A stretch of DNA of 59,239 bases from a virus: IMG/VR virus record IMGVR_UViG_3300030104_003308, positions 1-59,239 of that record; one strand, written 5' to 3'. The notes below the pieces were generated by a model, which worked only from the letters and a program-made list of their open reading frames with translations, ran no database searches and was not told the origin of the DNA. The position numbers were made by a program, and so were the translations under genes. This document shows, one piece after another, positions 5,422 to 47,063 of the stretch (within the stretch, counting starts at the first letter, position 1; each line of letters begins with the position of its first letter).

Positions 5422-5452
5422 TGTACATGTTAATATGTACACAGAGTATAAT
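5422..5452 (+). promoter_or_regulatory. Promoter with palindromic operator upstream of the AAA+ gene
   Basis: A perfect -10 hexamer TATAAT lies at 5447-5452. Just upstream is an inverted repeat TGTACAT-N6-ATGTACA (5422-5441) that covers the place where the -35 box would be; no good -35 is present, suggesting activator dependence or repressor control by a dimer. A consensus AAAGGAGG ribosome site follows. This is the only long gap in the early plus-strand block and probably drives the AAA+/VWA operon. Confidence 0.65.
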
Positions 5453-5474
5453 CCTATTAACCAAAGGAGGTATA

Positions 5475-8345: not shown

Positions 8346-10513
8346 AATCAGAATTATTTCAACATGAAATGACAGAAACGTCTGCGATCTTCGGACGTAA
8401 TGAGAATGTTCAAGTTGTCTTTAGAGGGGACGGAGCATTTACAGATGGCAATACCATTAACCTGCCATCTCTTATACATGGTGCTGAAGTTGACAAGGAC
8501 ACCATGTCTGTGATGCGTGGCTATACGGACCACGAAGCTGGTCACGTTAAGCACACAGACTTTGATGAGGTCAATAGGTTTGGAAATAAAGACTGCATAA
8601 ACCCAGATGGAACTCGTAATGATTTCTTGTTTGGTCTTGCCAATGCTATTGAGGATATATGGTTAGAGAAGAAAATCTTTAACGACTATCCAGGGGCTGA
8701 GAAGAATGTATCTTCTACTGCGTCTGCCGTGAACAAATCTTTTCTCGATAGGAAAGATGCCAAGAAGTTAGCGAAGGATTGGTTGTCGGTGCTTGGTGTT
8801 GCGATCACTTGGGAAGGTCGTAAGGATTATGATGGCATACAGCATACCCAAGAATGTCTTGACCTACTTGATGATGACTTCAAAGAAAGGCTTGAGGGTT
8901 GGGTCGAGAAGATCGAGAGCAGTAAGTGTACTCAAGACAATACGAAGTTAGCCAATGAAATATACAAAGAGGTGATGGCTGAAGATAAAAAGCGTCAACC
9001 AAAGCCAGAGAATAATGAGGGCGAAGGCGAAGGAGAGGGCAAGCCCAAAGAGAAACCACATGGGGAGGATGAAACTGATGGGAATAGAACACCAGAGCAT
9101 GAGCAAACTACAATGGGGGACGGAGAAGAACAAGAAGCACAGAAAGATACCACTGAGAACGATGGACAAGGTGCAAGTCAAGGAGATGAGAAATCTTCAG
9201 ACGCTGAAGCAAACTCTGATAAAGGAGATGAGGGCTCTCAAAAGGGAGCAGAAAAATCTGATGGTGAGGACGGAGATCAGCAGGGCAACGGAACTAAACA
9301 AAGCAATCCAGAACATGGGGATGATACTACAGAAGACCCGACAGAGGATAAAGATTTTGAAGGGGGTGGAGTAGGAGCGACCAATGTCTGGGGTCAGCAT
9401 GAACCATTCGATCATGGCTTCGATAAGGAGGTAGAGAAAGCCACTAAGGAAATGGAGAACAAGGCTCAAGGTGGTGTATTCTACAAACCATACACGACAA
9501 CGTATGACGCTGTGATAACTAAGGATACATTCTTCCATGAAGAAGTTGCAAATGTTTTATCCAATCCAAATGGTGACGCACGATACAAGAAGAAACTCAA
9601 GCAACAAACTGGCACTGCCAATGTGATACGCAGACGGATAGAGAGGGCGTTGTCTGCCAAGATGAACAGAGGTTGGGATCAAGGTCGAGAGTTTGGTCGG
9701 TTGGATAACAAGCGATTGGTTGGTGCTTTTAATGGACAGACCAATGTCTATAAGGAACGAGAGCCCATGCCAGAGATTGATACAGCAGTCACGATGTTAG
9801 TTGATTGCTCTGGCTCTATGGATGGTTACCCACTTGAACTGGCTCAAGAAGTAGCGATTGCTTTAACTGAGGCTATTGAGAGGACGATGGTGCAGTATGA
9901 GATACTTGGCTTTACCACTTGCATTACTGATTATGTTCAGAGCCCAGGTGAAAGGTTTAAACTAAAGCCAGAAAGCACTGACGATGATCGCTTTAACGAT
10001 TACGCAAGAACAGGGGTACTCACTGGCTATGTCTTCAAGAGTTTTGATGAGCAGTTGAGGTTAGCCAAGAGAGCGATTGGTAATATGACAAAGGTTTGGA
10101 CGGCTGCAAATACGGATGGCGAGAGTGTCTTGTGGGCATTGAATAGATTGCACAAGAGGAGAGAGGCAAGGAAGGTCTTGCTTGTCTTGTCAGACGGATA
10201 CCCTGCGTCTGGATGGTACAATGGTAAACCTGAAAGAATAAAAGCTGGTATGCCTGAACCACTTACCAGAGTTATGACAGATGAAGACCATCTTCGTTAT
10301 GCTGTTGATCGTGCCAAGAAAGAGGGGGTTGATTGTATTGGGATAGGGATAGATAGCAGTGCAGTTGAACAGTTCTATCCAGATTATGTGGTAGTTCATA
10401 AGCTTGAAGACTTGGAGAAGGAAGCGTTGGGTAAGTTAGCCAAGGCATTACTTGGTGAGAGGTATGAGGTAGATAACTCTAAGCTACTCAAGGTTCAAAA
10501 TGCAGTCGCTTAA
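8342..10513 (+). CDS. CobT-like HExxH/von Willebrand factor A protein
   Basis: A 723-aa protein in three parts. The N-terminal domain carries a zinc-type HEAGH motif (residues 64-68) with an NAIED acidic segment about 35 residues later, like the helix that supplies the third ligand in gluzincin-type sites. Residues about 220-350 are an acidic, repetitive linker rich in Glu, Gly and Asp. The C-terminal part is a VWA domain with a complete MIDAS-type DCSGSMDG (about residue 487) and a later LVLSDGYP strand. This is the CobT/VWA partner of the upstream MoxR/CobS ATPase. No CobN-like subunit is seen, so metal insertion into a corrin is unlikely; the pair may act as a metal-dependent chaperone or protease. 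Confidence 0.85.
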   Translation: MKSELFQHEMTETSAIFGRNENVQVVFRGDGAFTDGNTINLPSLIHGAEVDKDTMSVMRGYTDHEAGHVKHTDFDEVNRFGNKDCINPDGTRNDFLFGLANAIEDIWLEKKIFNDYPGAEKNVSSTASAVNKSFLDRKDAKKLAKDWLSVLGVAITWEGRKDYDGIQHTQECLDLLDDDFKERLEGWVEKIESSKCTQDNTKLANEIYKEVMAEDKKRQPKPENNEGEGEGEGKPKEKPHGEDETDGNRTPEHEQTTMGDGEEQEAQKDTTENDGQGASQGDEKSSDAEANSDKGDEGSQKGAEKSDGEDGDQQGNGTKQSNPEHGDDTTEDPTEDKDFEGGGVGATNVWGQHEPFDHGFDKEVEKATKEMENKAQGGVFYKPYTTTYDAVITKDTFFHEEVANVLSNPNGDARYKKKLKQQTGTANVIRRRIERALSAKMNRGWDQGREFGRLDNKRLVGAFNGQTNVYKEREPMPEIDTAVTMLVDCSGSMDGYPLELAQEVAIALTEAIERTMVQYEILGFTTCITDYVQSPGERFKLKPESTDDDRFNDYARTGVLTGYVFKSFDEQLRLAKRAIGNMTKVWTAANTDGESVLWALNRLHKRREARKVLLVLSDGYPASGWYNGKPERIKAGMPEPLTRVMTDEDHLRYAVDRAKKEGVDCIGIGIDSSAVEQFYPDYVVVHKLEDLEKEALGKLAKALLGERYEVDNSKLLKVQNAVA

Positions 10514-12663: not shown

Positions 12664-13039
12664 GAATATCAGTGAACCAAATTTTAAACAGACACCAGAA
12701 GACAAAAGGCCAGAGTATGTATTACATGGATTTACACCAAAGCAACACGGAGTTATGCAGATGCTCTGTCGGAGTGCAAGTAATGCAGAAATTGCCAGAC
12801 GTTTTAATATCTCTGAGAACACTGCGAAGATACATGTTCGTACTGTGGCTAAGAGGTTGGGTGTCAATGCAAGGGCAGAAATTGTGTTGAAAGTTTTACC
12901 TGCTTTGAAAGAGATAGACGAGGAAAGCTATCAGCTTCTTACGAAAGGTTTGCCAAGAAATTGGGATGCTAATTGGGGGAACGAAGGGGGTAAAGCATTT
13001 GACCACTTATTAATTAGGGACGACAATGCTAAAACTTAG
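12599..13039 (+). CDS. LuxR-type helix-turn-helix regulator
   Basis: A 146-aa protein with a short helical N-terminus and a clear LuxR/NarL-type DNA-binding domain at about residues 45-105: FTPKQHGVMQML, then the signature SNAEIARRFNISENTAKIHV, then KRLGV. There is no receiver or autoinducer domain, so it is a stand-alone DNA-binding protein. It starts at ATG 12599 (AGGAAAG upstream) and overlaps the integrase start by 14 bases. It probably controls lysogeny or integrase expression, and may bind one of the palindromes in the window. Confidence 0.88.
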   Translation: MKQLDRIEWKLDQIIQKLGTLENISEPNFKQTPEDKRPEYVLHGFTPKQHGVMQMLCRSASNAEIARRFNISENTAKIHVRTVAKRLGVNARAEIVLKVLPALKEIDEESYQLLTKGLPRNWDANWGNEGGKAFDHLLIRDDNAKT

Positions 13040-14300
13040 GTTACGTGGTGATACTTGGTACGCAATGGGTACAATCACTCGGCTTGATGGTAAGCGAGTG
13101 AGGGTCAAGCGTAGTACGAAGTTCACTTATAATCAAAAAAATTATGCCAAGTCTTTGTTGCCGACTATACAAGCTGAAGTTATTAAGCAGACTTGTGAGC
13201 CAAAGAAAGAAAAACGTAGCGACTACCTCGTTGCCGACATGAATAGTCGGTACTTAGGTAGGCCAGAAGGTTTCTTGTCATCAGCAAACGGATATATTCT
13301 GAATGATTTTGATAGGTTCTTTGGCAAGAGGGAGGTCTTGGACTTGGATATTAAGGAAGTGTATAGCCATTTCAATCGGAAGGGGACGAAGCCGTCTTCC
13401 ATTCGTAAAGAAATGGCGACACTCATAGCCAGTATTAACTATAGTAAGATGAGGGGATTTCCTTACATCATCTTTAGAGATGAGCAAGGTAAGGAAGTGA
13501 ACCTCGTCAAACCTCCCGAAGGTGAGGGTAGGTTAAGATGGTTAAGCATGAAGCAAAGGGATCACTTGATCTCTTGCTGTGATGAAGCAATCAAAGACCT
13601 TGTTGCTTTTCTATTCTACACTGGAGCGAGATTAGGCAATGCCTTTGAACTCACAGACCAGAATATAATAGGTGATGAGGTTATGCTTTACACAAGGAAG
13701 GGTAGGGCAAGGAAAGTTTCTTGGAGAAAAGTTCCAATTCTATCAGCCATCAAGCCAATGATGAGGGCTAGGTGTGGTGGTGGTCTTGTCTTTCCAAATC
13801 CATTGGGGACTTCATGGAGAAGGTCTGGTGTCAATAATGATGGAAGGAAAAGTGACAACACTAACTTCTATCACTTTTGGAATGATGCTTGTGAGAAAGC
13901 AGGGATCACAGACTTTAAACCCCATGATGCGAGGCATACTTTTGCTTCGCTTCTAAGACAGAATGGAGCAGGGCTAGATGAGTTGCAAGAGTTGTTAGGT
14001 CATGCCAGTTTGGAGATGGTCAGACGCTATGCACATCTTGCTCCTTCTAAATTGAAGAGTGTTATTGAACGCTTGGATGCTACCTCGGATGTGTCTGTCC
14101 CAAATCTGTCCCACGAAAATGTGGTGCTGACGGAAGGAATTGAACCTTCGACCTCTGCTTTACCAAAGCAGTGCTCTACCACTGAGCTACGCCAGCATAA
14201 GAGAGTAGATATTAACACATCAAAAGTTGCTGACAAGAGTACGTTAGATTTCATTACCAAGGACAAAAATACTAATCCTTTGGCTAAAAAACCCCCCTAA
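13026..14300 (+). CDS. int: Tyrosine integrase with tRNA/attP in its 3' end
   Basis: A 424-aa tyrosine recombinase that inserts phage DNA into the host chromosome. Catalytic positions are visible: Arg in TGARLGN (about 201), HDARH (about 299-303), LGHAS His (about 325) and Tyr in RRYAHLAP (about 334). An N-terminal AP2-like arm and a SAM-like core-binding region precede them. After the Tyr helix the reading frame runs on for about 80 codons through an antisense tRNA-Thr gene (14122-14196). Recombination at that tRNA would therefore replace the last roughly 60-70 codons, so the prophage form would have a different C-terminus. It overlaps the LuxR-type gene and is probably co-regulated with it. 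Confidence 0.95.
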   Translation: MLKLRLRGDTWYAMGTITRLDGKRVRVKRSTKFTYNQKNYAKSLLPTIQAEVIKQTCEPKKEKRSDYLVADMNSRYLGRPEGFLSSANGYILNDFDRFFGKREVLDLDIKEVYSHFNRKGTKPSSIRKEMATLIASINYSKMRGFPYIIFRDEQGKEVNLVKPPEGEGRLRWLSMKQRDHLISCCDEAIKDLVAFLFYTGARLGNAFELTDQNIIGDEVMLYTRKGRARKVSWRKVPILSAIKPMMRARCGGGLVFPNPLGTSWRRSGVNNDGRKSDNTNFYHFWNDACEKAGITDFKPHDARHTFASLLRQNGAGLDELQELLGHASLEMVRRYAHLAPSKLKSVIERLDATSDVSVPNLSHENVVLTEGIEPSTSALPKQCSTTELRQHKRVDINTSKVADKSTLDFITKDKNTNPLAKKPP

Positions 14301-24712: not shown

Positions 24713-25065
24713 GGCGTTTCCTTATTTGCTTTAACTTTTTCAATCGTAGTTCCTAAGATGAACCCACTGATGCAACCAAACTGAGAAAGAATGAAGGTCG
24801 TACTGACAGGTATCAAGTGGTCAAGTCTCGACTCTGGAACAAACTCTGGAAAGATTAGGATGCCGACAACAACAGTTGTGCATATCGTTTGAAACCAGAT
24901 TAAAGCACGGATCATATCTCGTTTGGCATTGTCGTCTTGGATACGTAACCTTTTTTCTTCTCTTGCCAGTTGAGCATCAATCTCTTCATCGGTTAGAATG
25001 TGATCTCCATTAGCATCAGCCTTATGAAAGCGAGAGTTTTTATCTAGCTTCTTTATCACTTCCAT
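24709..25065 (-). CDS. EF-hand-like membrane protein of the lysis cassette
   Basis: A 118-aa protein with an N-terminal EF-hand-type calcium loop (DANGDHILTDEE; Asp1, Asn3, Asp5, Glu12 present, the usual Gly6 replaced by His) and two transmembrane spans (ALIWFQTICTTVVVGILIF and TFILSQFGCISGFILGTTI). It overlaps the holin by four bases and the giant internal protein gene by ten. It may be a second holin or an antiholin sensitive to calcium. The last point is inference. Confidence 0.78.
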   Translation of the reverse strand: MEVIKKLDKNSRFHKADANGDHILTDEEIDAQLAREEKRLRIQDDNAKRDMIRALIWFQTICTTVVVGILIFPEFVPESRLDHLIPVSTTFILSQFGCISGFILGTTIEKVKANKETP

Positions 25066-28000
25066 TCACCTCCCCAGTTACCCCAACCAGAAGAAGTATT
25101 TGTTTTCTCTCCAGCTAAAGTATCAACGATGCCTTCTCTAGCTCTTCTAATCCCACCGACAACTGGTATCCTAGTCGCTAGTTCTCTGACGGCTGTTCTT
25201 TCTTTCGAGTTACTGTCTGTTGTTCCAAAGATAAAATCTTTAGCTCCACCAGCCACACTCAATCCACCTGTTACAAGACCGACACTTGGACCACCTAACG
25301 TCTGTAAGAACCTTGTCTGTCCATAAGAACCATTGTCTGCCTGTGTGACGGCTGAGTGTAAGATGTCACCGAGCAGACCAACACCACCCATTTGCAACAT
25401 TCCTTCAAGATACCAACCCCAGAAATCAACTTCATTCCCATGAACTTTCTCATCATATCCTAAAGTTTTCATAGCGTTTCTAATTCTAACGGCTGGTGAT
25501 TTCTCGTCTTCACCACCTCTCATTTGAACTACGTCTTTGACGGCTAATGCTCCCATACCAAAAGCTGGACCGAGTGAAGCAAAGTAAAGAAGGGGTTTGA
25601 TGTTGGCTTCGCCTATAGTAGAGAAGTCTCCCTTCAATATTTTATGTAGCTGGGCTTCCCTCATTACATGACCTGCCAGACGTGTCATCATTAGTGGGAA
25701 AGACTTTAACTGGAAAGCCAATGCACCAAGAGGTGTCTGTGCAAACATGGGTGTGTCGTTAGCATTTGGTTGAAAGATACTTTCGTCTGCAAATCTAATG
25801 ATAGCTTTTCTTAAAGCTGGTTCTTTAGGGTTGCCTTGTTTATCTAAACCAATAAGTGACTTATCACTTAAACTAACATTGCTTTTACTTCCACCAGCTA
25901 GATACTCTTCAAGACCAAACTGCTTCATGTATCTATAGGCTATCTTATAATCTCTTGGCTGTTGGCTTGTCGGCTTGCCATGTTGATAAGACTTTAATGC
26001 CTTTCTTTGGTGAGTGATAAATGTCTGGTGTCCTAATGCACCTGCCACCTGCCTGTTCATGTCTGTCCAAGGTGTCAGCATTGTTGCGTTAAAGAAAGCA
26101 TTTGATAGTTTGCTATCTACTGCACCATACATGTTTAACATTCTTTCGTGAGTAATATTCTCCATTGCGATACCAACCTCAGACAAGGCTCTCTTATAAT
26201 CTGGGTCAGTAGCCAGTGCCTTTACGCCTTTAACCCAGTCAGTCATAGAGCCAGACCTTATGATTGGTAAGACGAGGTCACCTAATGATGTCAGCGTAGT
26301 GAAGCCAAGCAGGGTAACATTGTTAAATGTTCTTAAAGCTCTTGAAGTTCTTAAACCTGCCTTACCACCAAAGTCATTGAGGCTATCTTTTCGAGCCACT
26401 CGCATAGAGTTTTCAACAAATCGTGCATCATCATTCTCCATTAAAGTTTTAACACCTTTGAAGTCTTCTAATGCTCCAACGATAGCATCAACTCTTGCCA
26501 AGTAAGTAGGGTCTTTAGCCCCATTAGCACTATTGACTGCAATACTCTCTAGTCTTTCTCTCACGGCTGGTGAGCCATGTGTGTTAGCTATCTCCACAAG
26601 CTCTTCTGCAAATTGAATTGCTTGCTGATCGTTGCCACTGAAAGGCATTAATGTTTCTGATCTAAGAACACCTTCTTGAACACCTTCAGTGGTGACACTT
26701 CTGAAATCTTTCTGGAATATTTTATTAGTAGATAAAAGTTTAGCTATTCCCCTAGCTCCATTCTCAGCAACATAGAGATAGTCGTCTACACCATGAGAAT
26801 TTAATCCAAACTTCTTGGTGTGAAGAGTTCTTCTTGTTGAACCTTCAAAATATTTGACCAACATAAACTCTAAGTCATCTTCAAGAAAATTCTCTAGCTC
26901 ACCCATAGCTCTTGGATATTTCTCAAGCTCTATTATTCTATTGAAGTCTATGCTTTCAGCCTGTGCATTTTTGGTACTACCCCTTACAGGTGACTTAGGA
27001 CTTTCTGGAACTTGAACACCATCTATGTTTTCTCTCGTCAGACTTTGATAAACCTTTTCTGCAAATGCGTCAGCGTCTGCCATTTGATATGTGTTACCTA
27101 AAGCTGTCTGCTCTTGACCATAATAGCTTCTCATACCTGCTAGAAAAGCATCTCTATTCTTTTGTATCTTGTCTCTATTCCATATCTGTGGAATGTAGTC
27201 CTTTCTCCAACCAACAAACATTCCAGCATCTTTCATTCGAGCATGTTCTTTAGCAAACTCATCTTTAATTTTATTAAATGCTGCTCTCTGTTGTGGAGTT
27301 AATGCTTTCTCTTGTCTGCTTCCTACTCCGTGTCTGAGGGCAGACACAATTTTCCTGTACGCTTCGGGTTGTTTTTGACCTACGCCACCAGACGCAGCCC
27401 TTGCCCAAGCCCTGACTTTTCCGTCTGCACCTGGCAAGTCACGCAATACATTGTGGATTGGCATATACTTTGATGCAAAAGTCTGATGCTGGTCTGGGAA
27501 GTGTTGCTTGTACCAGCCACCTAGCCAGTTCATACCCATTCTTTCCATTCTGTCTGACTGACTTCTTAGCCAAGCTATTGGTCCAGCCTTTCTGATAGCC
27601 TGTTCTTGAACAGGCGTAAAATCTCTACTCCTTATGATACTTGATAATGCGTCAACCATTGGAGGGGATACCCCTTCATCTTCAATAGTCTCAAGCATTT
27701 GAATAGTGTTATTGGTATCTAACTTATCAAGATTTCCGTCTGCCATTTCCATAGCAACAGAGCCGTTAAATCCCTGTGGTGTGGTTGAGAAGTCTCTATA
27801 GTATAGACGAGCGTCTTCAGCATCAAAGAACTCAGCATTGACATGCTTGACGCCTTCAGGATTGAAGACCACAAAGGCATCGTATTCAATAAATTCCCCA
27901 CGAACAGCATCTTCAGGAGTAGTGTCTGTCGGTGTCATTCTATTTTGATGAGGGAGTTTCATGCTATCAAAGCCAGCATCTTCAATAGCTTGGTTTAGAA

Positions 28001-31000
28001 TTGCTTGGGCGTTGTCTAACCCTGCTGTACCTATATCAGCATCCATCCCATTTCTTACGTAGCTCATAAGGGTGTCATAAACTTCCTGTCCTCTAAGACC
28101 AGTCTTAGGCCACCATTCTTGGAGCATCTCATCAGCAAATGCTCTGTCACCCCCTTCAAAATTATTTGTGACTGCATAGATTGATCTAAGTATAGATTTG
28201 ATTTGTGGGTCAATTAGCCTGTGAGTTACTCCTTTCCCCATATCAAAAGTATTTAGCATACGAGTGACAAGGGGTAAGACAGTTGGCTCAAAGTTAATTC
28301 CGTTTGCACTAAACTCAGCCGTTACTGCCTCTTCCTTTTCAAGCATTGAAGTCAGCTTGTCTTTTAATTTTGCCTCATGCTCTTGTTTCGTTTTAAGTTC
28401 TCGGTTGAGGTATGAGACACTATCTTCATCAATCTCTCCACCCATAACCTGTTCAAAGTGCATAACCTCATCATTGTGCATTTCAACATCATCTGCTGCT
28501 TCTGAAAGCTGGCGTCTGGTCTGTGCAATTTCTACCCTAAGATCGTGCAAATCTAAGGCTTCATAAACAAGAGCGTCTGTCTTTTCCTCACCAAGTTCTG
28601 GAGATTTATTTCTAATCATTTTTTCAATCGCTTTTGGTGTTGGGCGATTTCCATAAATCATTTCTACAGCACGAGAGTTTGGTGATATGTAAATTCCAGG
28701 TCCAGCAAGACCCCCACCTTGTTCCATCACAACTTGACTATTCTTAAATGCTCCACCATTTGGAGTGGCGTGATAGTAGACAATAGGTGTTCCGTCTTCT
28801 CGTACAGAATATTTACCACCTCCGTTGTATTTAGAGATGGCAGCTTTTTTTGATTGTTTGCTCTGTCTTAGAACATCACCAGCATACGCAGTAACGTATT
28901 CTGGTGAGACAGCAGGTTCTTTTATATTAGTTTTAACAAGTGGAGATTTGCCAGTAGCTTCAAGCATATCCCCATAAATGGTCAGACGTCTGAACTGTTG
29001 CTTGATGTCTTTACGTCCAATCAATCCATTAACCACATACGCTACATATTCGACAACTCTATCGAAAGCTCTCTCGAAAGAATTTTTAAGACGTATGTTA
29101 TCTAGGTTTCCACCAGACATAGCCTTTAATACATCCCCACGCATGGTTCTTTCACCTAGATATTTAGCTAAGTTTTCAGCAAACCATTCCTCGGCAAGCA
29201 AATCTTCTTGCTGTGCTTCTGGGGCATCGTATTTCCCACCATAAGCTTTCTTTACTCTGTCTTTAATTGCATCATCAGACGCTCTATAAAGCTCGATGAC
29301 AGCATCCATCTCTTCTTTTGGAAGCATACCAGCCCTTACGATTGTGTGACCAATCTCGTGGATAGCATCAAAGGGATTACTATTTCCTTTAGTTAAGCCA
29401 ATGGATATTTTTCTAAAATCTTTTCGTAGCTTGTTAAAAGTGCTACCACGAAAATCTACAGATACATTCTTCTGACCAGCAGGGTCTACACCAGCCAGAC
29501 GTGCTATGTCTGATGCGTCCATTACATTCGTTTCACCCATTGTGTTCTCTACATTTTTACCCATAAGGTTCATCATTCTGTAGAGCATTGTTCTTTGAGT
29601 AAACTGTACTTCTGGATCACGATGCGACATGTAAGACAGAATAGTCTTAGCACCGATTGGTGCTGATGGAGGAATACCATCTTCAGTTGCCACACCAATG
29701 CCATGATTGAGTTCTGTTTTAATTCTCTGTCTTAAATATTTAGGTATTGGTTTGTTAGCTGTCTTATATTTGTCAACTAGGCCACGTCTTTGAACTTCCC
29801 ACTCTATTGCAGAGAAGTTATATTCTCTTCCACCATGTTCAAATCTGCCTGTCCTTATTCCATCCCTCCAAAGTTTTAAAATTTCATCTTTGGTCAGAGT
29901 AAAAAGTTTGTGGCTTTCAGCAGACTTTCTTTGTAAGCGAGCAATAGCTTCTTCTGGTGTGGTATTTTTATCAAACCTAATTTTGTTTTCAGTAAGTATT
30001 CTTTTTACATTATTATTAATAGAAGGGAGAATCCCTCCTTGAAGTTTCTCTAATAAATCTAAAGCCTCTTGGGTAACAGGTGTCCTGTCTTTAGCTTGGT
30101 TAATTCTATTCATGTCTTGGGCAGAAGAGATGATAGGCTCTGGTTCTGCTTTTTTCTTCGACATCATCAGCCAAGCAATCTGATCGCCTAATGCTGTATC
30201 TTCTGTCTTCTTAAATAGCTCTAAGAGTTCCTTATAAGACTTATCTCCATAAGAAACTTGGGTGGCTTCAGTGATATAGTCCATTCTCTTGGAAGGATCG
30301 TATGTAGAATTTCTTTTTCTTTGTGGTTTCTTAACAACTTTAAACGCTCTATTCTCAGCGTCTAAATTATCATCTCTCTTTTTATTTAATCTTCTCTTAA
30401 TTGCTGGGTCAGGTTTTGTAACAGTAGTTTCCCCAGTTTTTAGGTTGACTATGGTATCTGGTAATTGCTTGCCCTCAAAATCCATATAGGCTGTATCTGT
30501 GTATTCTTCCATCAAACGCATAAGTTCTGTCACTGTAGTAAAATTTACTTCTTTCTTCAGGTGGGGAACATATACCTTGAAGGCTGTTCCTCCGTAGGGT
30601 CTTGCGTTTGCTCCTCCTTTTAGGTTTACAGAATGTCCATGCTCAAATAGTTCCATTAACAAATTTGCTTTAGCCTCTACTGTCTCAGGGCTTGGCATTG
30701 CATTAAGACCTTCTTGTCTTATCTTAGACGCTTCCGATTCAGGTATTTTTAAATCGTCTGGCAGACCAGCTTCAGACAAAATGTAGTTTATATCTGCTAA
30801 ACGGCCTCGCCCCATCTTTGCTATTTTTCGTAGCCAGCTTAATTCTTTCCTGACGTTTGTAGCTTTACCCCCTACGTCATAGCCTGGAAACGCCTTATAA
30901 AGTACATCACTTCTAAACGCTGTGATAACATTGATAAGTCTTTCTGGGTTTCCATACTCACTTTTGTTTTCTCTAATGGCAGCAGCAATATCATCTTTGT

Positions 31001-34000
31001 ACATTCTTAGTGTACTCTTAAAGCCCCACGCAAGTTTTCCCCCTGGCGTCTGTGGCTTGTCAGATATATTGCCCAGCTTTTTCATCTGTCTGATTTCTTC
31101 AGGAAGTATTTTAGAGAAGAGAGGTTCTAGGTTTGGATTAATCTCTTTTTTGGAAAAGTATCTGTCGATTGAACCTTTCAAGATTTCAGAAACTTTTGCA
31201 CCCATCCTCTTTCCATTAGGAAGAGGCTTTGCAAAGATGCCAGCAGTTCTATTATCCATAATCCAACTAGTGAACTGATCTCCAAAGACTTGACGAGGAA
31301 GAATACTGCCTTCCCCTCCATACTCTTCACTCAGCTTCTTCCCTCTTTTTTGTCCAGCCCCACGTTTTTGGCTAATGTCTTGAATAATACTGTTCCAGAA
31401 AACCATTCTATCTTCTGGCGTTAAGATGTTGTCATAAGCCCATTGAGATATGGCATGAAAGAAATCCCTGTCTGGCTTTGCACCTGAAGTCGCCAGAATT
31501 TTTCCCTTGTCGTAAGACCAAGAAGCTCCATCTTTTGCAGTAGTGCTTTCAGTACGGAAAATATTAGGTGCTTTATTAGGATCACCCCCCATATAAGAAA
31601 GTGTATTCTTAACAGCCACCACGAGATCGGGGTCTGTGCCAGACATAATTTGATTGATGCGATTAGTGGCTTCAGCCCTTTCAGCACTGCTCCTAACAAT
31701 ACCACCAGGCATTTTATCTCGCTGGATGGAATAAAGCTGTTCAAGATCGTTTATTAAAATGGCGTATTCTGTTTCTGTCTGTGCCAGAGAGAAGCCTTTA
31801 TTTTCTATAGTATCTATTCTCGCTTGGACATCTGCCAGTGTAGAATTTTCATTCATACCACCACGCTTAAAAGCCAATGCTTGTTGAGGATTGAGTTCGC
31901 CTGATGTGACAGGAGATTCAGCTAGGTTCTCAACAGGGGTAGCCATTCCATTTCCTGTTTCATCACCAACAAAACGTAAGACGCCTTTTCCGTCTGTTGC
32001 ATCGTGGGGAGGGGTTGATTTTTCCCATAACTCAGGAAGGACACTTTGCTTTCTGCTGGTAACTAACTCTTCATCAATGTATCTGACTTCCCAATCTTCT
32101 GGTTTTTGATTGCCCAACATTTCCTTCAAGCCTTCGCCATTAGCTTCTTGCTTGGAGTTCATAATTCTTATAGGGCGAGCTCCAGTTCCATCCTTTCTTT
32201 TTATTATAAGTATTCTGTTACCTTTTCGGAGGGGCTGATCTTCAAGGACTTTAGATTTACCAGTTCTTCTTATGTCTTTCTGGTAGTAAAGAAGATCGGC
32301 AGTATATTCGCTGTCAAATATTTTTCCGTTTCTTCCATCAACATATAAGACTGTACCCTTTTCAAATATGGTACTGTCATTAATTCGCCCTTCTGGGGAA
32401 ACAGAATAAACTTTGTATTCTTTCTGTTCAGTGACATAAGGAACAACAACGCTTTCACGCTCTATTGCTTCTATTTCAGCTTCGACTGCTTTGATCTTAT
32501 CTGGACTTCTAAGTCTATCTATTCTTTTTCTAAGTTTTTCTACATTCTCTCCCTTTCTAAGCAATCTCCTCTTAGCTTCAGCGAGGGCAGAGCCGTAATC
32601 CATCATACGATTGTCTACAAAAGTTTGCTCAGATTTATCTAAACCAACCCTATTAGACTGCCACTTTAGGAATGACTGTATTCTTCCGTTTTCTGTTCTG
32701 CCAGCTTGTTTAAGAATAGATGCACGATCAATCGCTGCCTGTGCATTTCTCATGTGAGTTTTAATTCCTCGGCCTCTTCTTTTTTCTAAGACCATCTTCT
32801 TGGCATTTAAAGCTATCTCTTCTGGGTCTGGATCAACATAATCTGCAAGCTCGTCCTTAGATAGGTTGGCTTTGTATTTTTTTTCGTTTCTTATTAGATC
32901 ATTAATAAGGTCTTGCATCTCAGACTGTTCTTCGGGCTTCAGCTTTAGCTTTCTAATAAGATCATTGTCTGCTATCATCTGAGCTTCTCCACCAGAGATC
33001 ATCTCATCGTAGGCTTTCTCTATGTCTGCTGGATTTTTAGATGGCTGTTTTCTTTTCATCTGGTCGATAACAACCTTACGCATCTCATCAGGGTCAGTTA
33101 TCATTTTGTTGGCAGACGCTAGGTTGCCAGCTACTTTTCCAAATGGCATATCTGGTTCGGGTGTTTTGCCAGTACCAGTTTCCTCAAGAATACTCTTAAC
33201 TGTATTAGGAGCACCTCGCATAATGACGCCAGCAGAGTTTGTTGGGATTTTGCCAGAAGCAATGTTTTCTTTAAGAAAAGTATTGGCTTCTTCTGGAGTA
33301 AGACCAGCTTCTGCAAGTACTCTATCAACCCCTTTTTTTCCACCACCACCTGCTTTCTTCCCCCAATTCGGTTCTGGAAGTTCTGATAGTTCTTGCTCTG
33401 GAGCTTTTGTTTCTACTTCTGGTGCTGGTGCGTCTGTATCTACTGTGGCAGCAGAAGGTTCAGCCACTTGGGAGGATTCATCGGCTTGGCCTTCTGCCAC
33501 CTGTCCAGCCTCTCTGGGTGGAGGAGAAGCTGTACCTTTTTCTGTTGTTGTCTTAGTTTTTACTTCTTCAGCTTTTAATTCTTTAGCTCTCGTTTCTATT
33601 TCTTTTGCTCGTGCTTCAGCATTGGCTATAATGCTACGGACAGTAACTGTATCGCCTCTCTTTAGTGCAGCCCTTGCTTTTGCAACGTCTGCGTCCAGAG
33701 CTTCTTGCATTTTTTTAGCAGTGGTTCTGTCTGAAACTTTGTTTGATGCCTGAAGTATTGTGATCTGGTCTTGTTCATTACTAAGACGATTAATAATCCT
33801 TGCATTGATTTGTGCTTGAGCAAGCTCTGCTTCCACATCTGATCTCGCTGCACCTGAAACTCCTTGCTCTTCCATTTCAAGGAGAGCGTCTTCGTGTTCT
33901 TTAATCTGTCTTTGAAAGGTTGCTTCCTGACCTTTTAATTCTTCAATTATTTCCTCAGTTGCTGTCTTTGGGGCAGGTGCTACTTCACCTTCTGCTAATT

Positions 34001-34874
34001 CGTCTGCCTGTTTTTCAGGAGGTACAAAACCTGGGGGGACAGTTGGTCCAGTTATTTGTGCGTCTTTGACAGCTTCGGTTGCTTGTTTGTTTGTAAGTAA
34101 GGCAATGTCTTCTGGAGTATTATTGAGTCTAGGGTTTAAAAGCTCTTCAGCTTGTCTTTGTCCTTGTCTTGTTCCAGCTATTGAAGCAGGGATACCGATA
34201 GTACCACCAACAGCACCACCTAAAACAGTTCCAAAGGCAGTTGCTTTTGTGAATTGACCCCAGTCAAACTCTTCTTGAAGACCTATGTCCTGTCTGTAAG
34301 ACTGTTCGGATACGTTGATTAATGCTTCCTGTCCACCTGAGATTACACCTTCTGTACCAGCAGCAGCACCCATACCTTTGAGAGTGGACTTAATAGGTGT
34401 TCCTTTACCTAATGCAGTCGCTGTTCTCATAGAGGCTTGGGCTACAGATTTACCTGCAACACCACCAAGTATGTTGATTGGATCAAGCAATACAGACGTT
34501 GCTATGTCTGGAACAGCACCCCAACCACGACCACCTTCTTGATAGAAATTTGGAAGATTATCCCAAACAGTAGAAAGTCTTGCGTTTCTTAACTTCTCTT
34601 CGTCTGTGTCTCCACCACCTTGCGACAACCTTCCTACAGCACCAATAGTATTTAACTGAGCCCAGTTTTCGTCTGAGTAAAATTTGTTGATAAGGTCTTC
34701 ATCAGTATAAATTCCATCAGGATCATATCTGTCTTGAAGGTCTTTTAAAAACTGAGGGTTTCTAAGAATAGTTCTTCTATCTACTTGCGAAGCATATCCG
34801 AGGTCGATGTTTGAAGATGAGGTTTGATCTATGGGATCAGTTATATCCCATGTCGTATCTTTAAATGATGACAT
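25056..34874 (-). CDS. Giant polyvalent internal virion (ejection) protein
   Basis: A 3272-aa protein, about a sixth of the genome. Order: a hydrophobic Gly-rich stretch near residues 205-240; long charged, helical, Pro/Glu-rich linkers (250-500); several unassigned domains; a zinc-peptidase-like HEIGH (about 1838) with a later EEWFAENLAKYL segment that could give the third ligand; an ADP-ribosyltransferase-like fold beginning YYHATPNGGAF (about 2031), with GPGIYISPNS and ending YDAFVVFNPEGV; and a helical C-terminal third with membrane-like patches. This matches the polyvalent proteins described for phages, which are ejected with the DNA to modify host targets. Length and place suit a T7 gp16-like ejection role. 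Confidence 0.88.
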   Translation of the reverse strand: MSSFKDTTWDITDPIDQTSSSNIDLGYASQVDRRTILRNPQFLKDLQDRYDPDGIYTDEDLINKFYSDENWAQLNTIGAVGRLSQGGGDTDEEKLRNARLSTVWDNLPNFYQEGGRGWGAVPDIATSVLLDPINILGGVAGKSVAQASMRTATALGKGTPIKSTLKGMGAAAGTEGVISGGQEALINVSEQSYRQDIGLQEEFDWGQFTKATAFGTVLGGAVGGTIGIPASIAGTRQGQRQAEELLNPRLNNTPEDIALLTNKQATEAVKDAQITGPTVPPGFVPPEKQADELAEGEVAPAPKTATEEIIEELKGQEATFQRQIKEHEDALLEMEEQGVSGAARSDVEAELAQAQINARIINRLSNEQDQITILQASNKVSDRTTAKKMQEALDADVAKARAALKRGDTVTVRSIIANAEARAKEIETRAKELKAEEVKTKTTTEKGTASPPPREAGQVAEGQADESSQVAEPSAATVDTDAPAPEVETKAPEQELSELPEPNWGKKAGGGGKKGVDRVLAEAGLTPEEANTFLKENIASGKIPTNSAGVIMRGAPNTVKSILEETGTGKTPEPDMPFGKVAGNLASANKMITDPDEMRKVVIDQMKRKQPSKNPADIEKAYDEMISGGEAQMIADNDLIRKLKLKPEEQSEMQDLINDLIRNEKKYKANLSKDELADYVDPDPEEIALNAKKMVLEKRRGRGIKTHMRNAQAAIDRASILKQAGRTENGRIQSFLKWQSNRVGLDKSEQTFVDNRMMDYGSALAEAKRRLLRKGENVEKLRKRIDRLRSPDKIKAVEAEIEAIERESVVVPYVTEQKEYKVYSVSPEGRINDSTIFEKGTVLYVDGRNGKIFDSEYTADLLYYQKDIRRTGKSKVLEDQPLRKGNRILIIKRKDGTGARPIRIMNSKQEANGEGLKEMLGNQKPEDWEVRYIDEELVTSRKQSVLPELWEKSTPPHDATDGKGVLRFVGDETGNGMATPVENLAESPVTSGELNPQQALAFKRGGMNENSTLADVQARIDTIENKGFSLAQTETEYAILINDLEQLYSIQRDKMPGGIVRSSAERAEATNRINQIMSGTDPDLVVAVKNTLSYMGGDPNKAPNIFRTESTTAKDGASWSYDKGKILATSGAKPDRDFFHAISQWAYDNILTPEDRMVFWNSIIQDISQKRGAGQKRGKKLSEEYGGEGSILPRQVFGDQFTSWIMDNRTAGIFAKPLPNGKRMGAKVSEILKGSIDRYFSKKEINPNLEPLFSKILPEEIRQMKKLGNISDKPQTPGGKLAWGFKSTLRMYKDDIAAAIRENKSEYGNPERLINVITAFRSDVLYKAFPGYDVGGKATNVRKELSWLRKIAKMGRGRLADINYILSEAGLPDDLKIPESEASKIRQEGLNAMPSPETVEAKANLLMELFEHGHSVNLKGGANARPYGGTAFKVYVPHLKKEVNFTTVTELMRLMEEYTDTAYMDFEGKQLPDTIVNLKTGETTVTKPDPAIKRRLNKKRDDNLDAENRAFKVVKKPQRKRNSTYDPSKRMDYITEATQVSYGDKSYKELLELFKKTEDTALGDQIAWLMMSKKKAEPEPIISSAQDMNRINQAKDRTPVTQEALDLLEKLQGGILPSINNNVKRILTENKIRFDKNTTPEEAIARLQRKSAESHKLFTLTKDEILKLWRDGIRTGRFEHGGREYNFSAIEWEVQRRGLVDKYKTANKPIPKYLRQRIKTELNHGIGVATEDGIPPSAPIGAKTILSYMSHRDPEVQFTQRTMLYRMMNLMGKNVENTMGETNVMDASDIARLAGVDPAGQKNVSVDFRGSTFNKLRKDFRKISIGLTKGNSNPFDAIHEIGHTIVRAGMLPKEEMDAVIELYRASDDAIKDRVKKAYGGKYDAPEAQQEDLLAEEWFAENLAKYLGERTMRGDVLKAMSGGNLDNIRLKNSFERAFDRVVEYVAYVVNGLIGRKDIKQQFRRLTIYGDMLEATGKSPLVKTNIKEPAVSPEYVTAYAGDVLRQSKQSKKAAISKYNGGGKYSVREDGTPIVYYHATPNGGAFKNSQVVMEQGGGLAGPGIYISPNSRAVEMIYGNRPTPKAIEKMIRNKSPELGEEKTDALVYEALDLHDLRVEIAQTRRQLSEAADDVEMHNDEVMHFEQVMGGEIDEDSVSYLNRELKTKQEHEAKLKDKLTSMLEKEEAVTAEFSANGINFEPTVLPLVTRMLNTFDMGKGVTHRLIDPQIKSILRSIYAVTNNFEGGDRAFADEMLQEWWPKTGLRGQEVYDTLMSYVRNGMDADIGTAGLDNAQAILNQAIEDAGFDSMKLPHQNRMTPTDTTPEDAVRGEFIEYDAFVVFNPEGVKHVNAEFFDAEDARLYYRDFSTTPQGFNGSVAMEMADGNLDKLDTNNTIQMLETIEDEGVSPPMVDALSSIIRSRDFTPVQEQAIRKAGPIAWLRSQSDRMERMGMNWLGGWYKQHFPDQHQTFASKYMPIHNVLRDLPGADGKVRAWARAASGGVGQKQPEAYRKIVSALRHGVGSRQEKALTPQQRAAFNKIKDEFAKEHARMKDAGMFVGWRKDYIPQIWNRDKIQKNRDAFLAGMRSYYGQEQTALGNTYQMADADAFAEKVYQSLTRENIDGVQVPESPKSPVRGSTKNAQAESIDFNRIIELEKYPRAMGELENFLEDDLEFMLVKYFEGSTRRTLHTKKFGLNSHGVDDYLYVAENGARGIAKLLSTNKIFQKDFRSVTTEGVQEGVLRSETLMPFSGNDQQAIQFAEELVEIANTHGSPAVRERLESIAVNSANGAKDPTYLARVDAIVGALEDFKGVKTLMENDDARFVENSMRVARKDSLNDFGGKAGLRTSRALRTFNNVTLLGFTTLTSLGDLVLPIIRSGSMTDWVKGVKALATDPDYKRALSEVGIAMENITHERMLNMYGAVDSKLSNAFFNATMLTPWTDMNRQVAGALGHQTFITHQRKALKSYQHGKPTSQQPRDYKIAYRYMKQFGLEEYLAGGSKSNVSLSDKSLIGLDKQGNPKEPALRKAIIRFADESIFQPNANDTPMFAQTPLGALAFQLKSFPLMMTRLAGHVMREAQLHKILKGDFSTIGEANIKPLLYFASLGPAFGMGALAVKDVVQMRGGEDEKSPAVRIRNAMKTLGYDEKVHGNEVDFWGWYLEGMLQMGGVGLLGDILHSAVTQADNGSYGQTRFLQTLGGPSVGLVTGGLSVAGGAKDFIFGTTDSNSKERTAVRELATRIPVVGGIRRAREGIVDTLAGEKTNTSSGWGNWGGEWK

Positions 34875-34936: not shown

Positions 34937-37216
34937 TTACTGATCGGCTAGAACTGCTTCTTCAATTCTTTTGTATCTGTCTTCACCCCAAATTTGTTTG
35001 GCTATTTCTTTAGCCTTTTCATTTGTTAAAATCCACTCGATAGGCGTGTCTACAAAATCCTGATAATTAAATTCTACACCATCAATCTTTGCATTTAAGC
35101 CAAGCTCTTGCCAGATTTCTCTAGGTCTGTCGCTTACAAAGAACTCTTCTATTCCTTTTTGTATAATGACTTGTCTATCGGTTAGGTCTTTCCAAGGACT
35201 TCCACCAAAGATATTCCAGTCCATAGCATCTACTGGGATACCCTCAAATTCTGGCCTATTCCGATTAAATGTTAGTTTTGCTTCTAATGCGTCTTGTTCT
35301 TTTTCTTTCTGAGTTCTATTGTCAGTAAGAGCCCTGTCATTGGCTGAGTTATTAGCTGGCTGTAAGGTTTCGGCTGTATTGGTTAGCTCTTCAATTTTTG
35401 CGTCAATGTCTGATAAATCAAAATCTTCAACACCAGAGAATAGATTGTTTATAACATTCTGGTCATATTGTTTTCCGTCTATATCTCTCCAAGCTCTTCG
35501 GTCATCATAGTTTCTTTCTATGGTTTTGCCTAAACCTTCAGTCCATGATTTGTATTGAGTCTTTAAATTATTCAAGACACGAATAGCTGATTGAACTTCC
35601 TCTTTGGTTGTTGCATTAGCCACACCATCTACTACTGTTTGAGCTTGTTCTATTAAACTGTCCTGACTGCTTTGAATATGAGTTTCAAGGTCTTTTTTGT
35701 AGTCACCAAAAGTAGTTCTTGACAGTGGTCTAAGACCTGACATTTCTTCGATTTGACTTTGCATTTGAGATAATGGAGTACCTCCATTATCTTGAAGAAA
35801 AGCCTCAAGAGCGTTTTTCATTTGACCAACATTATTAAGAACGTCTTCTCCAAGTCCTTCTGCTCCTTGAGCAAATTCAAGAATTAAACTAGTTGTTCTC
35901 TCGTCCATAAACCATCTGCTTGATATATGATTAACAATAGTTGGAAGAGTTGCTATATTTCCAGCTAGAACTTTACCCTCACCACCAGAAAATATCTTGC
36001 TGGCCTTGTCTGCATTTTGTGTTTTTAGCTCCGTTATAGAAACTTTTCTTTGTTCATTTACGTCTTTCTTACGTTGCCATTCCAGACCATCTAAAGTGTC
36101 TTGGTTTATACCTACCATAGTAGCAATTCGATTATCAAGAAACTTATCTAATTTTGCTTTACCAGTAGCATTGTTCCAGCCTTCACCAGAAATCATGTAA
36201 CCAAAATCTTTCAGAATTTTTTCCTTTGCTACATCTTTACCTTGAGAGCGTATTACATTTGTAATAATCTCCATTATAGTTTCCCGATCTATTAATTCGC
36301 CCAATTTAGTGAGATCATTAGCCATATCTTCGTCAACCCTTTGGTCATATCGCTCTTTACCTGCATTATAAATTTTATCTAACCAATCGCCTTCTTTTAA
36401 TTTATCTACGTAAGGGCTATTTTTTATCTGGCTTTCGATAATCGCTTGAGCTTCTGCTGGAGTGTTGTACTGATTAGACGAATTTTTTTCATTGATTAGC
36501 TTGTTAAATTTTTCAGAATATTTTTCTATTTCCTCATTAACTTTTTGAGTTACCTCTTGTTCTTTGGCTGTTTTAAGATTGTTATATACTTGTTCGGCAA
36601 CAGCTTTAGGTAAATTGGTCACTTGCTGAAAAGCCTCAAGAGTTCCATACGTTCCGATAGGAAGAGTTTCAAAATAATTTTTACCCAGACCTAAGTTTTC
36701 ATTAACTCGATTAGCTATCGCCTGATCCCTAGCTTCTCCTGTCATAATAGCATTGAAATTAATTCCTAAGTCTTTTAACTCTGGACGCATATTTAAAAAG
36801 TCATCTACTGCTTTAGTATAATCATATCCAGGTATGCCTTGTTGGTTGTTCGTCTTTTTAAGATCAATTAAATAGTTTTCTATTTCAGGAGCTAAGTCTT
36901 TTTCTATCTTTCTTCTTTCTTGATAACGCTTAAAAGCTAAAGTCTTTTGACGCTCTGCTTCTCTTGCTGCATTACTGGCTGCAATTCTTTGAAGAACTTC
37001 TTTTCCAGGTGCTCCACCTGCAATGTAATTATTGCCACCAGAATGTTGGTCAATAAAATTTTGAAAGTCTGCGACAGTTGCTAAAGGATTACTTTTCTTA
37101 AACGCCTCAAAGGCTTCAGCCATTTGCTGTCTTTGACCACGTCTGTAATCAAATCTGTCGGCTGTCTGACCAACTATGTTAGCTAAGTTTACCATTTGTT
37201 TGCACCTATCATCCAA
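34937..37216 (-). CDS. Internal virion protein (gp15-like position)
   Basis: A 759-aa, helical, charged protein with no transmembrane span and many Lys/Glu heptad-like segments. ATG 37216 has GGAG five bases upstream; ATG 37196, overlapping the stop of the upstream gene, is a good alternative (752 aa). Its place between two other internal proteins suggests the second ejection component, comparable to T7 gp15, which forms the ejection conduit. No sequence motif proves this. Confidence 0.8.
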   Translation of the reverse strand: MDDRCKQMVNLANIVGQTADRFDYRRGQRQQMAEAFEAFKKSNPLATVADFQNFIDQHSGGNNYIAGGAPGKEVLQRIAASNAAREAERQKTLAFKRYQERRKIEKDLAPEIENYLIDLKKTNNQQGIPGYDYTKAVDDFLNMRPELKDLGINFNAIMTGEARDQAIANRVNENLGLGKNYFETLPIGTYGTLEAFQQVTNLPKAVAEQVYNNLKTAKEQEVTQKVNEEIEKYSEKFNKLINEKNSSNQYNTPAEAQAIIESQIKNSPYVDKLKEGDWLDKIYNAGKERYDQRVDEDMANDLTKLGELIDRETIMEIITNVIRSQGKDVAKEKILKDFGYMISGEGWNNATGKAKLDKFLDNRIATMVGINQDTLDGLEWQRKKDVNEQRKVSITELKTQNADKASKIFSGGEGKVLAGNIATLPTIVNHISSRWFMDERTTSLILEFAQGAEGLGEDVLNNVGQMKNALEAFLQDNGGTPLSQMQSQIEEMSGLRPLSRTTFGDYKKDLETHIQSSQDSLIEQAQTVVDGVANATTKEEVQSAIRVLNNLKTQYKSWTEGLGKTIERNYDDRRAWRDIDGKQYDQNVINNLFSGVEDFDLSDIDAKIEELTNTAETLQPANNSANDRALTDNRTQKEKEQDALEAKLTFNRNRPEFEGIPVDAMDWNIFGGSPWKDLTDRQVIIQKGIEEFFVSDRPREIWQELGLNAKIDGVEFNYQDFVDTPIEWILTNEKAKEIAKQIWGEDRYKRIEEAVLADQ

Positions 37217-38553
37217 TCTCCAAATACTTTAGAGAAGTTTTCACTTACTGTATCTCCTCTCTTGAGGGTATTTTCTAAATAGTTAGTTGCTCCTGTGAGC
37301 ATATTACCTGCTACTGAACTTGGGTTGCCCCAGTTTTGTGTGTTGTATCCATAAACAGCAGACGGCATACTCATGCCCTGATTTGTACCCATGCGTCCTA
37401 ACCCTTGACCAGTTAATCCTGACATCCCTGTTCCTAAGTTAGTGTATCCGTCCATCATACCACTTCTTAATCCATACTTGTCTTGGAAATTATTAGCTGA
37501 ACTTCCGATTGATCGGTCATAGATGCCAGACATTGGCTGATAGTTCATATAACCAAGAGCAGAAGGTGCGTTAGGAAGGTTTGTCATTTCATTGATTCCA
37601 GCACCAAATACATTTCCGTATTGCCCTAACTGTTGATCTCTCGAAGCCAGAATTGTATTGAGGTCTGTGTTTCTAAGGTTCTGTTGCCCACCAATGTAAG
37701 TCATAGCATCATCATAGGCTTTAAACCTTGCCTTCTGATACTCGTCAGCCAATCGACTTGCAACATCTGATCGTACCGAATTAGCCTGAGTGGAGTTGTC
37801 CATTCCTCCTCTTATGAGATCAGCTTCTGAAACAGACGCAACTCTATCGGCTGCTCGATCTACGTCTGAGATATACTGATCTGTACGTCTTGAAATTTCA
37901 CTATCTATTTCCTCTTGTGTTATCGGCTGAACATCTGGGACATCTTGAAGACCAGCATAAGTATCTTGCAATCCAGTCTGCAATCCTCTGATGTCGTCCA
38001 TTATCCTTTCTCGCTGGCTCATAACAGCATTACGTTCTTGCATTGCCTGTATTCTGGCATTGTTAAATTCTGACAACTGAAATTGTCTTTCAATTTCTTT
38101 TTGAGCTTTTGCTGTTTCAAAGCGTCTTTGATCTTCGTCACGCTCACCTGCTGCAATCGCTTTAGCTTCTTCGAGTTGTGCTAACGCAAACTTTCTTTCT
38201 TGCTGTGAGATTTGTTGGTTCTGTAAATACTGCTCCATCTTAAAAGCAAATTGTCTTGCAGCTTCTTTATCCATTGCAAGCATACGATCAATTTCAAATT
38301 GACGTTCTTTCAAAAGATTAGCTTTGTACTCTTCTAATTCACTTTCAGCAAACGTCCTTTCGTCTGCCTGTATCCCTCTGTTAAGGGCATCTATTTCACG
38401 AGTGTAATCTTTTTCATCTTGCCTCCAATCCATCATAGTATCGAAAGCGTAACGATTAAATTCACTTGCTTGATCGTAAGACTTTTGAGCCTTATTAGAA
38501 GCACTCATCTGCTGTAATAAACCAAGTCCACCTAGTACGAGTGACCATGCCAT
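37189..38553 (-). CDS. Internal virion protein (gp14-like)
   Basis: A 454-aa protein with a hydrophobic N-terminus (WSLVLGGLGLLQQM), a long coiled-coil region (residues about 30-210, Glu/Arg/Gln-rich) and a Gly/Asn/Met-rich C-terminal tail. This layout is like T7 gp14-type proteins, which enter the outer membrane on ejection. It is followed by the 759-aa gene and preceded by the 791-aa gene. The assignment is by pattern and place. Confidence 0.8.
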   Translation of the reverse strand: MAWSLVLGGLGLLQQMSASNKAQKSYDQASEFNRYAFDTMMDWRQDEKDYTREIDALNRGIQADERTFAESELEEYKANLLKERQFEIDRMLAMDKEAARQFAFKMEQYLQNQQISQQERKFALAQLEEAKAIAAGERDEDQRRFETAKAQKEIERQFQLSEFNNARIQAMQERNAVMSQRERIMDDIRGLQTGLQDTYAGLQDVPDVQPITQEEIDSEISRRTDQYISDVDRAADRVASVSEADLIRGGMDNSTQANSVRSDVASRLADEYQKARFKAYDDAMTYIGGQQNLRNTDLNTILASRDQQLGQYGNVFGAGINEMTNLPNAPSALGYMNYQPMSGIYDRSIGSSANNFQDKYGLRSGMMDGYTNLGTGMSGLTGQGLGRMGTNQGMSMPSAVYGYNTQNWGNPSSVAGNMLTGATNYLENTLKRGDTVSENFSKVFGDWMIGANKW

Positions 38554-46243: not shown

Positions 46244-46675
46244 TTAGTTCGTCCCTATTAAAGATTTTGTCCAACTTTCTTTTTCACAGTCCTCAGAAAA
46301 CTTACTAGGATGTATCCTTTTAGTCAGACCTTTCCCAAAAAAACCTACATTAAAAAATAGAACTTTCTCTATATCTATGGCAACCAGTGCAACAATGTCA
46401 CAGTCTTTTTTTGTTAAGGGGATTTTTGGCAGACGCCCAGAGCATACAGAAAAGTGATACGTCCAGTATCCTCTGCTTTTTCTTTCATAAGCTCTTCTGT
46501 ACCGACTAGACTTTACTTGCACTCTTACAGGTTTGTTGTTGTTTAATGCCAGTATGTCTGTCTTTTGCAGATACACAAAATTACAGGGGACACCCATCTT
46601 CAATAGCTTTGTCAAGCATATTGCTTCTCCAAGAAGACCCATGTTTAAATGGGCGTATCTATCCTTTTCTTCCAT
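46244..46675 (-). CDS. PD-(D/E)XK-type nuclease inserted in the head region
   Basis: A 143-aa basic protein with an early Glu (GEAICLTKLL), TDILALNNNKPVRVQVKSSRYRR in which Asp and the Q-x-K core match the PD-(D/E)XK fold, and no DNA-binding add-on. It sits between the SleB-type hydrolase and the capsid gene, where an enzyme is unexpected, and overlaps the hydrolase by 17 bases. It may be a free-standing homing-type or junction-cutting nuclease. Confidence 0.65.
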   Translation of the reverse strand: MEEKDRYAHLNMGLLGEAICLTKLLKMGVPCNFVYLQKTDILALNNNKPVRVQVKSSRYRRAYERKSRGYWTYHFSVCSGRLPKIPLTKKDCDIVALVAIDIEKVLFFNVGFFGKGLTKRIHPSKFSEDCEKESWTKSLIGTN

Positions 46676-47063
46676 AGAATATATGTCTGCCGATCTTTTT
46701 GATTTTCGATACGTCTGAGAGCCAGTAAGGTTTTACATAGGAAGCGTGGTAGAATAGGGCTTGATCTCCAACAACTGTTACTCTTGCGTCTTCCATGTAC
46801 GCATCAAACATTGTTTCTGCTATTCTAACAGACTTTCTCCACGCTTCTTTCTCATAGGGCTTGTCTGACTTCCCATCACAAGTCCAGCTAAATGCACAAG
46901 ATTTCTTACCAGACTGGAGAACAACCTTCTTTACAGTATCAGGATAATAGGGGCTATCAACTCTATTAAGAGTAACTTCAGCCACTGCAATCTGACCAGA
47001 GATAGGCTCATTCCTTGCTTCGTGGTAAATATTAAGTGCTAAATATAATACAGCTTCTAACAT
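46659..47063 (-). CDS. SleB/CwlJ-type cell wall hydrolase
   Basis: A 134-aa protein matching the Hydrolase_2 (SleB) family: LALNIYHEARNEPISGQIAVAEVTLNRV with the catalytic Glu, YPDTVKKVV, CAFSWTCDGK and FYHASYVKPYW. It cuts peptidoglycan. It is encoded in the structural module, apart from the M15 endolysin, so it may be carried in the virion to open the wall at entry, or be a second lysin. Confidence 0.88.
   Translation of the reverse strand: MLEAVLYLALNIYHEARNEPISGQIAVAEVTLNRVDSPYYPDTVKKVVLQSGKKSCAFSWTCDGKSDKPYEKEAWRKSVRIAETMFDAYMEDARVTVVGDQALFYHASYVKPYWLSDVSKIKKIGRHIFYGRKG

Follow-up and report, generated by a model that had tools for sequence, protein, structure and literature searches.

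A predicted gp16-type ejection protein carrying an effector cassette in a CRP-810-type marine phage

Proteins of the T7 gp16 type (internal virion protein D) are ejected ahead of the DNA and build a channel (PMC11440229). Other phages deliver effectors: T4 Alt, a head-packaged ADP-ribosyltransferase (ART), is injected with the DNA, and injection is expected for the phage polyvalent proteins, which are large multidomain chains with ART and HExxH domains (Iyer et al., 2017, PMC5512222). The prototype of the polyvalent ART family, defined by a His in strand 1, a Tyr in strand 2 and an Asp in strand 5, is the RPP1 virion RNA polymerase (vRNAP) (PMC5512222). This protein and N4 gp50 are both giant ejected proteins in which an HExxH domain is combined with a large, helical C-terminal region. 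Here we describe a gene of the virus record IMGVR_UViG_3300030104_003308, a contig of 59,239 bases that we call the window. The nearest annotated relative of the contig is Roseobacter phage CRP-810, in which the corresponding gene has been published so far solely as internal virion protein D (ORF36, gp36) followed by two hypothetical open reading frames (ORFs; gp35 and gp34), with no mention of a polyvalent domain (PMC11288001). The gene, at 25056-34874 on the minus strand, most likely encodes a gp16-type ejection protein with a built-in effector cassette in a podovirus-like marine phage of the CRP-810 type.

The roughly 9.8-kb gene is a single ORF from an ATG, with GGAG about 10 nt upstream and zero internal stops, and it encodes 3272 residues, as a preliminary description of this DNA had stated. 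The same architecture occurs in dozens of phage contigs. Among the family set of at least 100 loci collected in three initial scans, nearly all complete copies, mostly of 3,100-4,000 residues, show the same module order in one ORF: an N-terminal module, two HExxH-type domains that we call Z1 and Z2, an ART domain and a C-terminal module. Both the Z1 and Z2 regions are present in 224 ORFs (89 unique), and the exceptions with a split ORF are CRP-810 and contig L076. Judged from these sequences, we consider this layout, and the view that it represents an ejected protein with several effectors, probably right. The preliminary description had called the protein a polyvalent ejection protein with ART-like and peptidase-like regions and found no recognised domain over much of the remaining length. 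We find there an N-terminal module, a degenerate second HExxH domain and a gp16-like C-terminal module, and the gene would be better described as encoding an effector cassette inside an ejection protein of the T7 gp16 type. The earlier statement does hold for residues 400-1090 (31605-33677, minus strand), a variable region in which distant relatives share little identity, for which profile searches gave no match and in which no domain was recognised. A sequence search of solved structures with all modules returned no credible match.

Both ends of the chain point to an ejection protein. The N-terminal module (residues 1-250; 34125-34874, minus strand) is common to proteins annotated as internal virion protein D in pelagiphages: it matches that of HTVC031P (tblastn, 5e-10), its hidden Markov model matches L009 and L010, and three relatives show a weak match (0.0025) to PHROG 342, an internal virion protein with an endolysin domain. 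The C-terminal module (residues 2413-3272; 25059-27638, minus strand) aligns collinearly over 517 columns with a seven-member alignment of the C-terminal half of T7 gp16 (hhalign E 1.4e-5), against E values of 0.03-0.7 for ten column shuffles, one reversal and four decoys. It also matches gp51 of Pseudomonas phage tf, a LUZ24 gp50-like phage particle protein (E 4.4e-9), and its fold matches in BFVD include several internal virion proteins; compared with the internal virion protein D of HTVC031P it gave no match. No other part of the protein is as well conserved as these C-terminal ~850 residues, which have a mean column identity of 51% across 50 relatives. From the homology of both ends to proteins of the internal virion protein D or T7 gp16 type, and from the position of the gene beside structural genes, we infer an ejection role, which lends indirect support to the earlier proposal. 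The giant protein thus shares with T7 gp16 its C-terminal half and its place among structural genes, but it is 2.5 times longer, adds the HExxH and ART domains and has no match to a Pfam transglycosylase. The position of an effector cassette inside an ejection protein appears, on sequence evidence, to be new here.

The ART domain (residues ~2020-2360; 27795-28817, minus strand) is the best supported part of this cassette. It contains the motifs YYHATPNGG (residue 2033) and GPGIYISPNS (residue 2058), from which the preliminary description had proposed an ART of phage polyvalent proteins. At E ≤0.1, 39/50 relatives match the Pfam family ART-PolyVal (PF18760), with a best value of 2.5e-10, and one of them, L005, is the sole member above the gathering score (35.9 against 31.2 bits). 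The His (H2035) and the Tyr (Y2062) are each kept in 62/62 sequences, the putative strand-5 Asp (D2303) in 55, and a Lys-His pair after the last strand is almost as constant (K2343 in 60/62, H2344 in 61/62). An AF2 model of residues 1695-2425, covering Z2 and the ART domain (mean pLDDT 81.5; alignments for the structure models were built from window and contig rows only), assigns the His and the Tyr to two consecutive strands and puts the Asp immediately ahead of a strand further along, with the strands in the expected order and a pLDDT of mostly 85-95 over the ART part. A search of BFVD with the model found ART-PolyVal-like proteins, among them one of Dickeya phage JA11 (probability 1.00, TM score 0.56 on the target). 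The RPP1 vRNAP carries YHGT and GYDG motifs at equivalent relative places, and when the ART profile was compared with 15 windows of that protein, the best values (0.007 and 0.009) fell in the two windows containing YHGT, with no signal elsewhere. We therefore consider the ART reading well supported by conservation and by the model, and the domain is most likely an ADP-ribosyltransferase of the ART-PolyVal or Tox-ART-HYD2 type, interrupted by a long helical insert. The insert had been described before as a coiled coil interrupting the domain, and it is real: residues ~2096-2190 (28305-28589, minus strand), placed after the second strand, are modelled as a hairpin of two helices, 48 and 41 residues long (pLDDT ~92), and form the least conserved stretch of the domain. 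T4 Alt is a functional model only, as its ART is of the R-S-E type, belongs to another clade and does not reside in a polyvalent ejection protein (PMC5512222).

In a separate observation, most members of a subclade of ~3,900-4,000 residues (L043, L046, L047, L048, L049 and L051) carry a Glu in place of the ART Asp. L044 has an Ala at this position, and L041, of the same subclade, retains the Asp.

Upstream of the ART domain in the chain lies Z2 (residues ~1700-2000; 28875-29777, minus strand), which is 69-92% identical to its near relatives. It contains the HEIGH motif already pointed out at about residue 1838, found here at residues 1839-1843 (29346-29360, minus strand). An HExxH motif is expected by chance 0.03 times in a protein of equal length and composition, and this one is conserved as far as ~25% identity. 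The acidic segment noted after it corresponds to a conserved AEEWFAE helix (residues 1894-1900; EEWFAE, 1895-1900, at 29175-29192, minus strand), the second Glu of which, E1896, is a Glu in 42/42 relatives with an intact HExxH and is the likely third zinc ligand. In the AF2 model the two motifs occupy helices 140-153 and 192-212 (model numbering), so that Z2 combines an HExxH in a helix with a conserved Glu from a following helix. The second HExxH-type domain, Z1 (residues ~1095-1260; 31095-31592, minus strand), is degenerate in the present phage. In most relatives it has an HExxH followed by PQEFFANQ or a similar segment, with HExxH and Glu together in 46 of them, where the present phage has HAISQ and RQVFGDQ. 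The clade of this phage shows a range of such variants (HAISQ, HSISQ, HAIAQ, HAVAQ, HATSQ, RETAS, RGVSQ and SSIAE), and the third-ligand Glu is found in 0/8 scored degenerate copies versus 46/46 intact ones. Pfam gave Z1 scattered weak matches to M91, M90 and M78 (0.0025-0.1), in single relatives only. The profiles of Z1 and Z2 match each other with their motifs in register (E 4.2e-5, against 0.04 or worse for reversed, shuffled and decoy controls), which shows at the level of sequence profiles that the two domains are homologous.

The two sites appear to decay reciprocally. Among the 84 relatives, including the present phage, whose two motif positions are both readable, both sites occur in 49, Z1 alone in 24 and Z2 alone in 11, and no member lacks both, so that the remaining site is intact in 35/35 single-site members. 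The Z2-only group is the clade of the present phage. Five members (L075, L050, L014, L137 and L188) were left out of this count because their motif columns are gaps, and we take them to be truncated contigs. A tree of the C-terminal module places one loss of Z1 and two losses of Z2; one loss of each is placed when a mixture model and a smaller set of rows are used. Taken together, the sequences suggest at least three independent losses. We do not treat this pattern as strong statistics, because the 35 single-site relatives amount to three events, too few for a firm claim. A separate lineage (L205, L216, L227 and L228) has a Z2 motif that is lost or strongly diverged, independently of the main Z2-less clade; L216 was not placed on the tree.

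Marine phages of the CRP-810 type share this architecture, as far as their sequences allow comparison. The gp36-gp35-gp34 region of CRP-810 is homologous to the giant protein over almost its entire length, with an identical module order, but it is annotated as three ORFs where the present phage has one, and both of its peptidase sites are intact, unlike those of the present phage. We considered whether the split reflects natural modularity and rejected this for the second break only (gp35/gp34), where an exact 31-bp tandem duplication is found (L007, 21550-21620). Since the duplication is absent from L012, which is 90% identical to CRP-810 and has a continuous ORF, the second break is a recent lesion or an assembly error.

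These features suggest how the protein may work. We infer packaging, ejection, self-cleavage, ADP-ribosylation and the target alike. The ejection parts would be the first ~250 and the last ~850 residues, residing in the virion core and entering the cell with the DNA. In the most probable course of events, the giant protein would be packaged in the head and would leave by way of the tail, either before the DNA or together with it. An intact peptidase would then cut the chain and free the ART from the channel-forming parts, and the ART would modify host macromolecules in favor of early infection, by analogy with the action of T4 Alt on RNA polymerase. The giant protein may in this way disarm host proteins, perhaps at once as suggested earlier, and trim itself during DNA entry. 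Self-cleavage as the role of the peptidase falls just short of an even chance in our estimate. More tentatively still, one active site, in either of the tandem domains, might be obligatory for infection by releasing the ART from the ejectosome during entry.

Several observations weigh against parts of this reading. At the ends of the chain, the N-terminal module has no match when compared directly with T7 gp16, and the structure model of the C-terminal module is weak (pLDDT 64). In the ART domain, the present phage scores 20.7 bits (E 7.5e-4) against a curated cut-off of 31.2 bits for ART-PolyVal, the Asp column holds Glu in six and Ala in one of 62 sequences, and the choice of D2303 as the strand-5 Asp is our own and not certain. 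Together with the large insert between strands, the sub-threshold score and the replaced Asp would also fit a decayed pseudo-ART kept as a structural remnant. We consider this quite improbable, as the His and the Tyr remain invariant although the sequence around them falls to ~25% identity. A search of the PDB with the Z2-ART model found no ART match; its best match, the cyanophage A4 pre-ejectosome (E 0.015, TM score 0.18), was too weak to be used. As to the peptidase reading, Z2 has no match among the Pfam peptidase models, no zincin is among the matches listed by Foldseek for the Z2-ART model, and residues 1-294 of that model hold no strand, so that the three-stranded sheet expected before the HExxH helix is absent; the two catalytic helices are present in all-helical surroundings. 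Structure prediction bears out the ART fold with its helical insert, and profile searches with relatives support it, but neither supports a peptidase family for the HEIGH region. Of the gluzincin-type site proposed earlier, the HExxH...E pattern, its conservation and the homology to Z1 stand, but no profile, zincin fold or sheet goes with them. It is plausible from its motifs that Z2 is metallopeptidase-like in its working, but because the model has no strand before the HExxH helix we do not count it among the MPTase family, and the sequence supports the gluzincin class only as far as a Glu as third ligand.

The absence of a peptidase profile and of a zincin fold would also suit HExxH domains that are structural, zinc-stabilised or fossil, and devoid of protease activity; the HExxH-bearing C1 domain of the N4 vRNAP may be of this kind. 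One or the other site has been lost in three lineages, and the part of PMC12633501 available to us reports no cleavage of the N4 vRNAP. We nevertheless think this unlikely. Where the HExxH of Z1 has decayed the third ligand has changed too, and the other domain keeps all its ligands, which argues that the catalytic residues are under selection as a set. If zinc were bound and nothing more, the two His and the third-ligand Glu would suffice, yet the Glu of the HExxH is kept in intact copies. If the domains are active, they may act on host proteins instead of their own chain. A host-directed role is allowed for polyvalent MPTases (Iyer et al., 2017, PMC5512222) and would equally explain at least one intact site in every evaluable relative, but a peptidase that shares its chain with further effector domains is commonly interpreted as a processing unit (PMC5512222). 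The sequence itself does not discriminate between the two targets, and we rate an effector peptidase against host proteins as rather unlikely, though less so than a structural role. Self-cleavage is itself not a given, because the HExxH-bearing N4 vRNAP is packaged without prior processing (Iyer et al., 2017, PMC5512222); in P1 DdrB proteolytic processing precedes packaging (PMC5512222). The resemblance to the N4 protein extends to a similar length and to an HExxH domain that precedes a large, helical C-terminal region (N4 C1-C2, PMC12633501), and the N-terminus of one relative weakly matches a vRNAP PHROG (5.8e-5). An N4-like vRNAP is nonetheless highly improbable, and we rejected this identity: N4 gp50 gave no profile match to the N-terminus, Z2-ART or the C-terminus, the RPP1 vRNAP gave none to Z2-ART or the C-terminus beyond the weak ART motif match, and RNA polymerase matches were found nowhere in the protein. 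Unlike these two giant proteins, of which the RPP1 vRNAP also has an ART, the gene described here most likely encodes a gp16-type ejection protein. Compared with the polyvalent proteins, its effector domains lie within such an ejection protein, its HExxH domains go unrecognised by Pfam and its two tandem copies decay reciprocally.

The giant gene follows the portal and capsid genes in transcription order, and holin and endolysin genes come immediately after it. Its two upstream neighbours, conserved in relatives, encode 759 residues (34937-37216, minus strand) and 454 residues (37189-38553, minus strand). We dropped their identification as homologues of T7 gp15 and gp14, respectively, since neither gave a match when compared with these proteins, and we liken them to gp15 and gp14 by position only. 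A small SleB-like cell-wall hydrolase ORF, recognized by eye, adjoins the capsid gene (46659-47063, minus strand), and CRP-810 has a "lysozyme" in a similar place; this ORF might be the source of the murein hydrolase absent from the giant protein.

Elsewhere in the window, the two ends of the contig share a 42-base overlap containing one mismatch (1-42 and about 59198-59239), and two parts of a large-terminase-like gene, assigned to its family by eye, lie at opposite ends (ORFs 1-873 and 58444-59238, minus strand). The overlap and the divided gene make it probable that the record represents an almost complete genome with circular permutation. A tRNA-Thr(ggt)-like sequence (14122-14196, minus strand) lies within the 3' end of an integrase-like ORF (13026-14300, plus strand), as an attP core would be, so the phage may be temperate; CRP-810 likewise carries an integrase. 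ORFs 5313-7289 and 8342-10513 (plus strand) resemble by eye an AAA ATPase and a VWA-domain protein, like the CobS/CobT pair annotated in CRP-810.

The predicted protein links the ejectosome proteins of podoviruses with injected polyvalent effectors, topics that are mostly considered separately, within one globally distributed family of marine phages. The reciprocal decay of its HExxH domains makes the role of such domains in ejected phage proteins directly testable, through the single site that remains.

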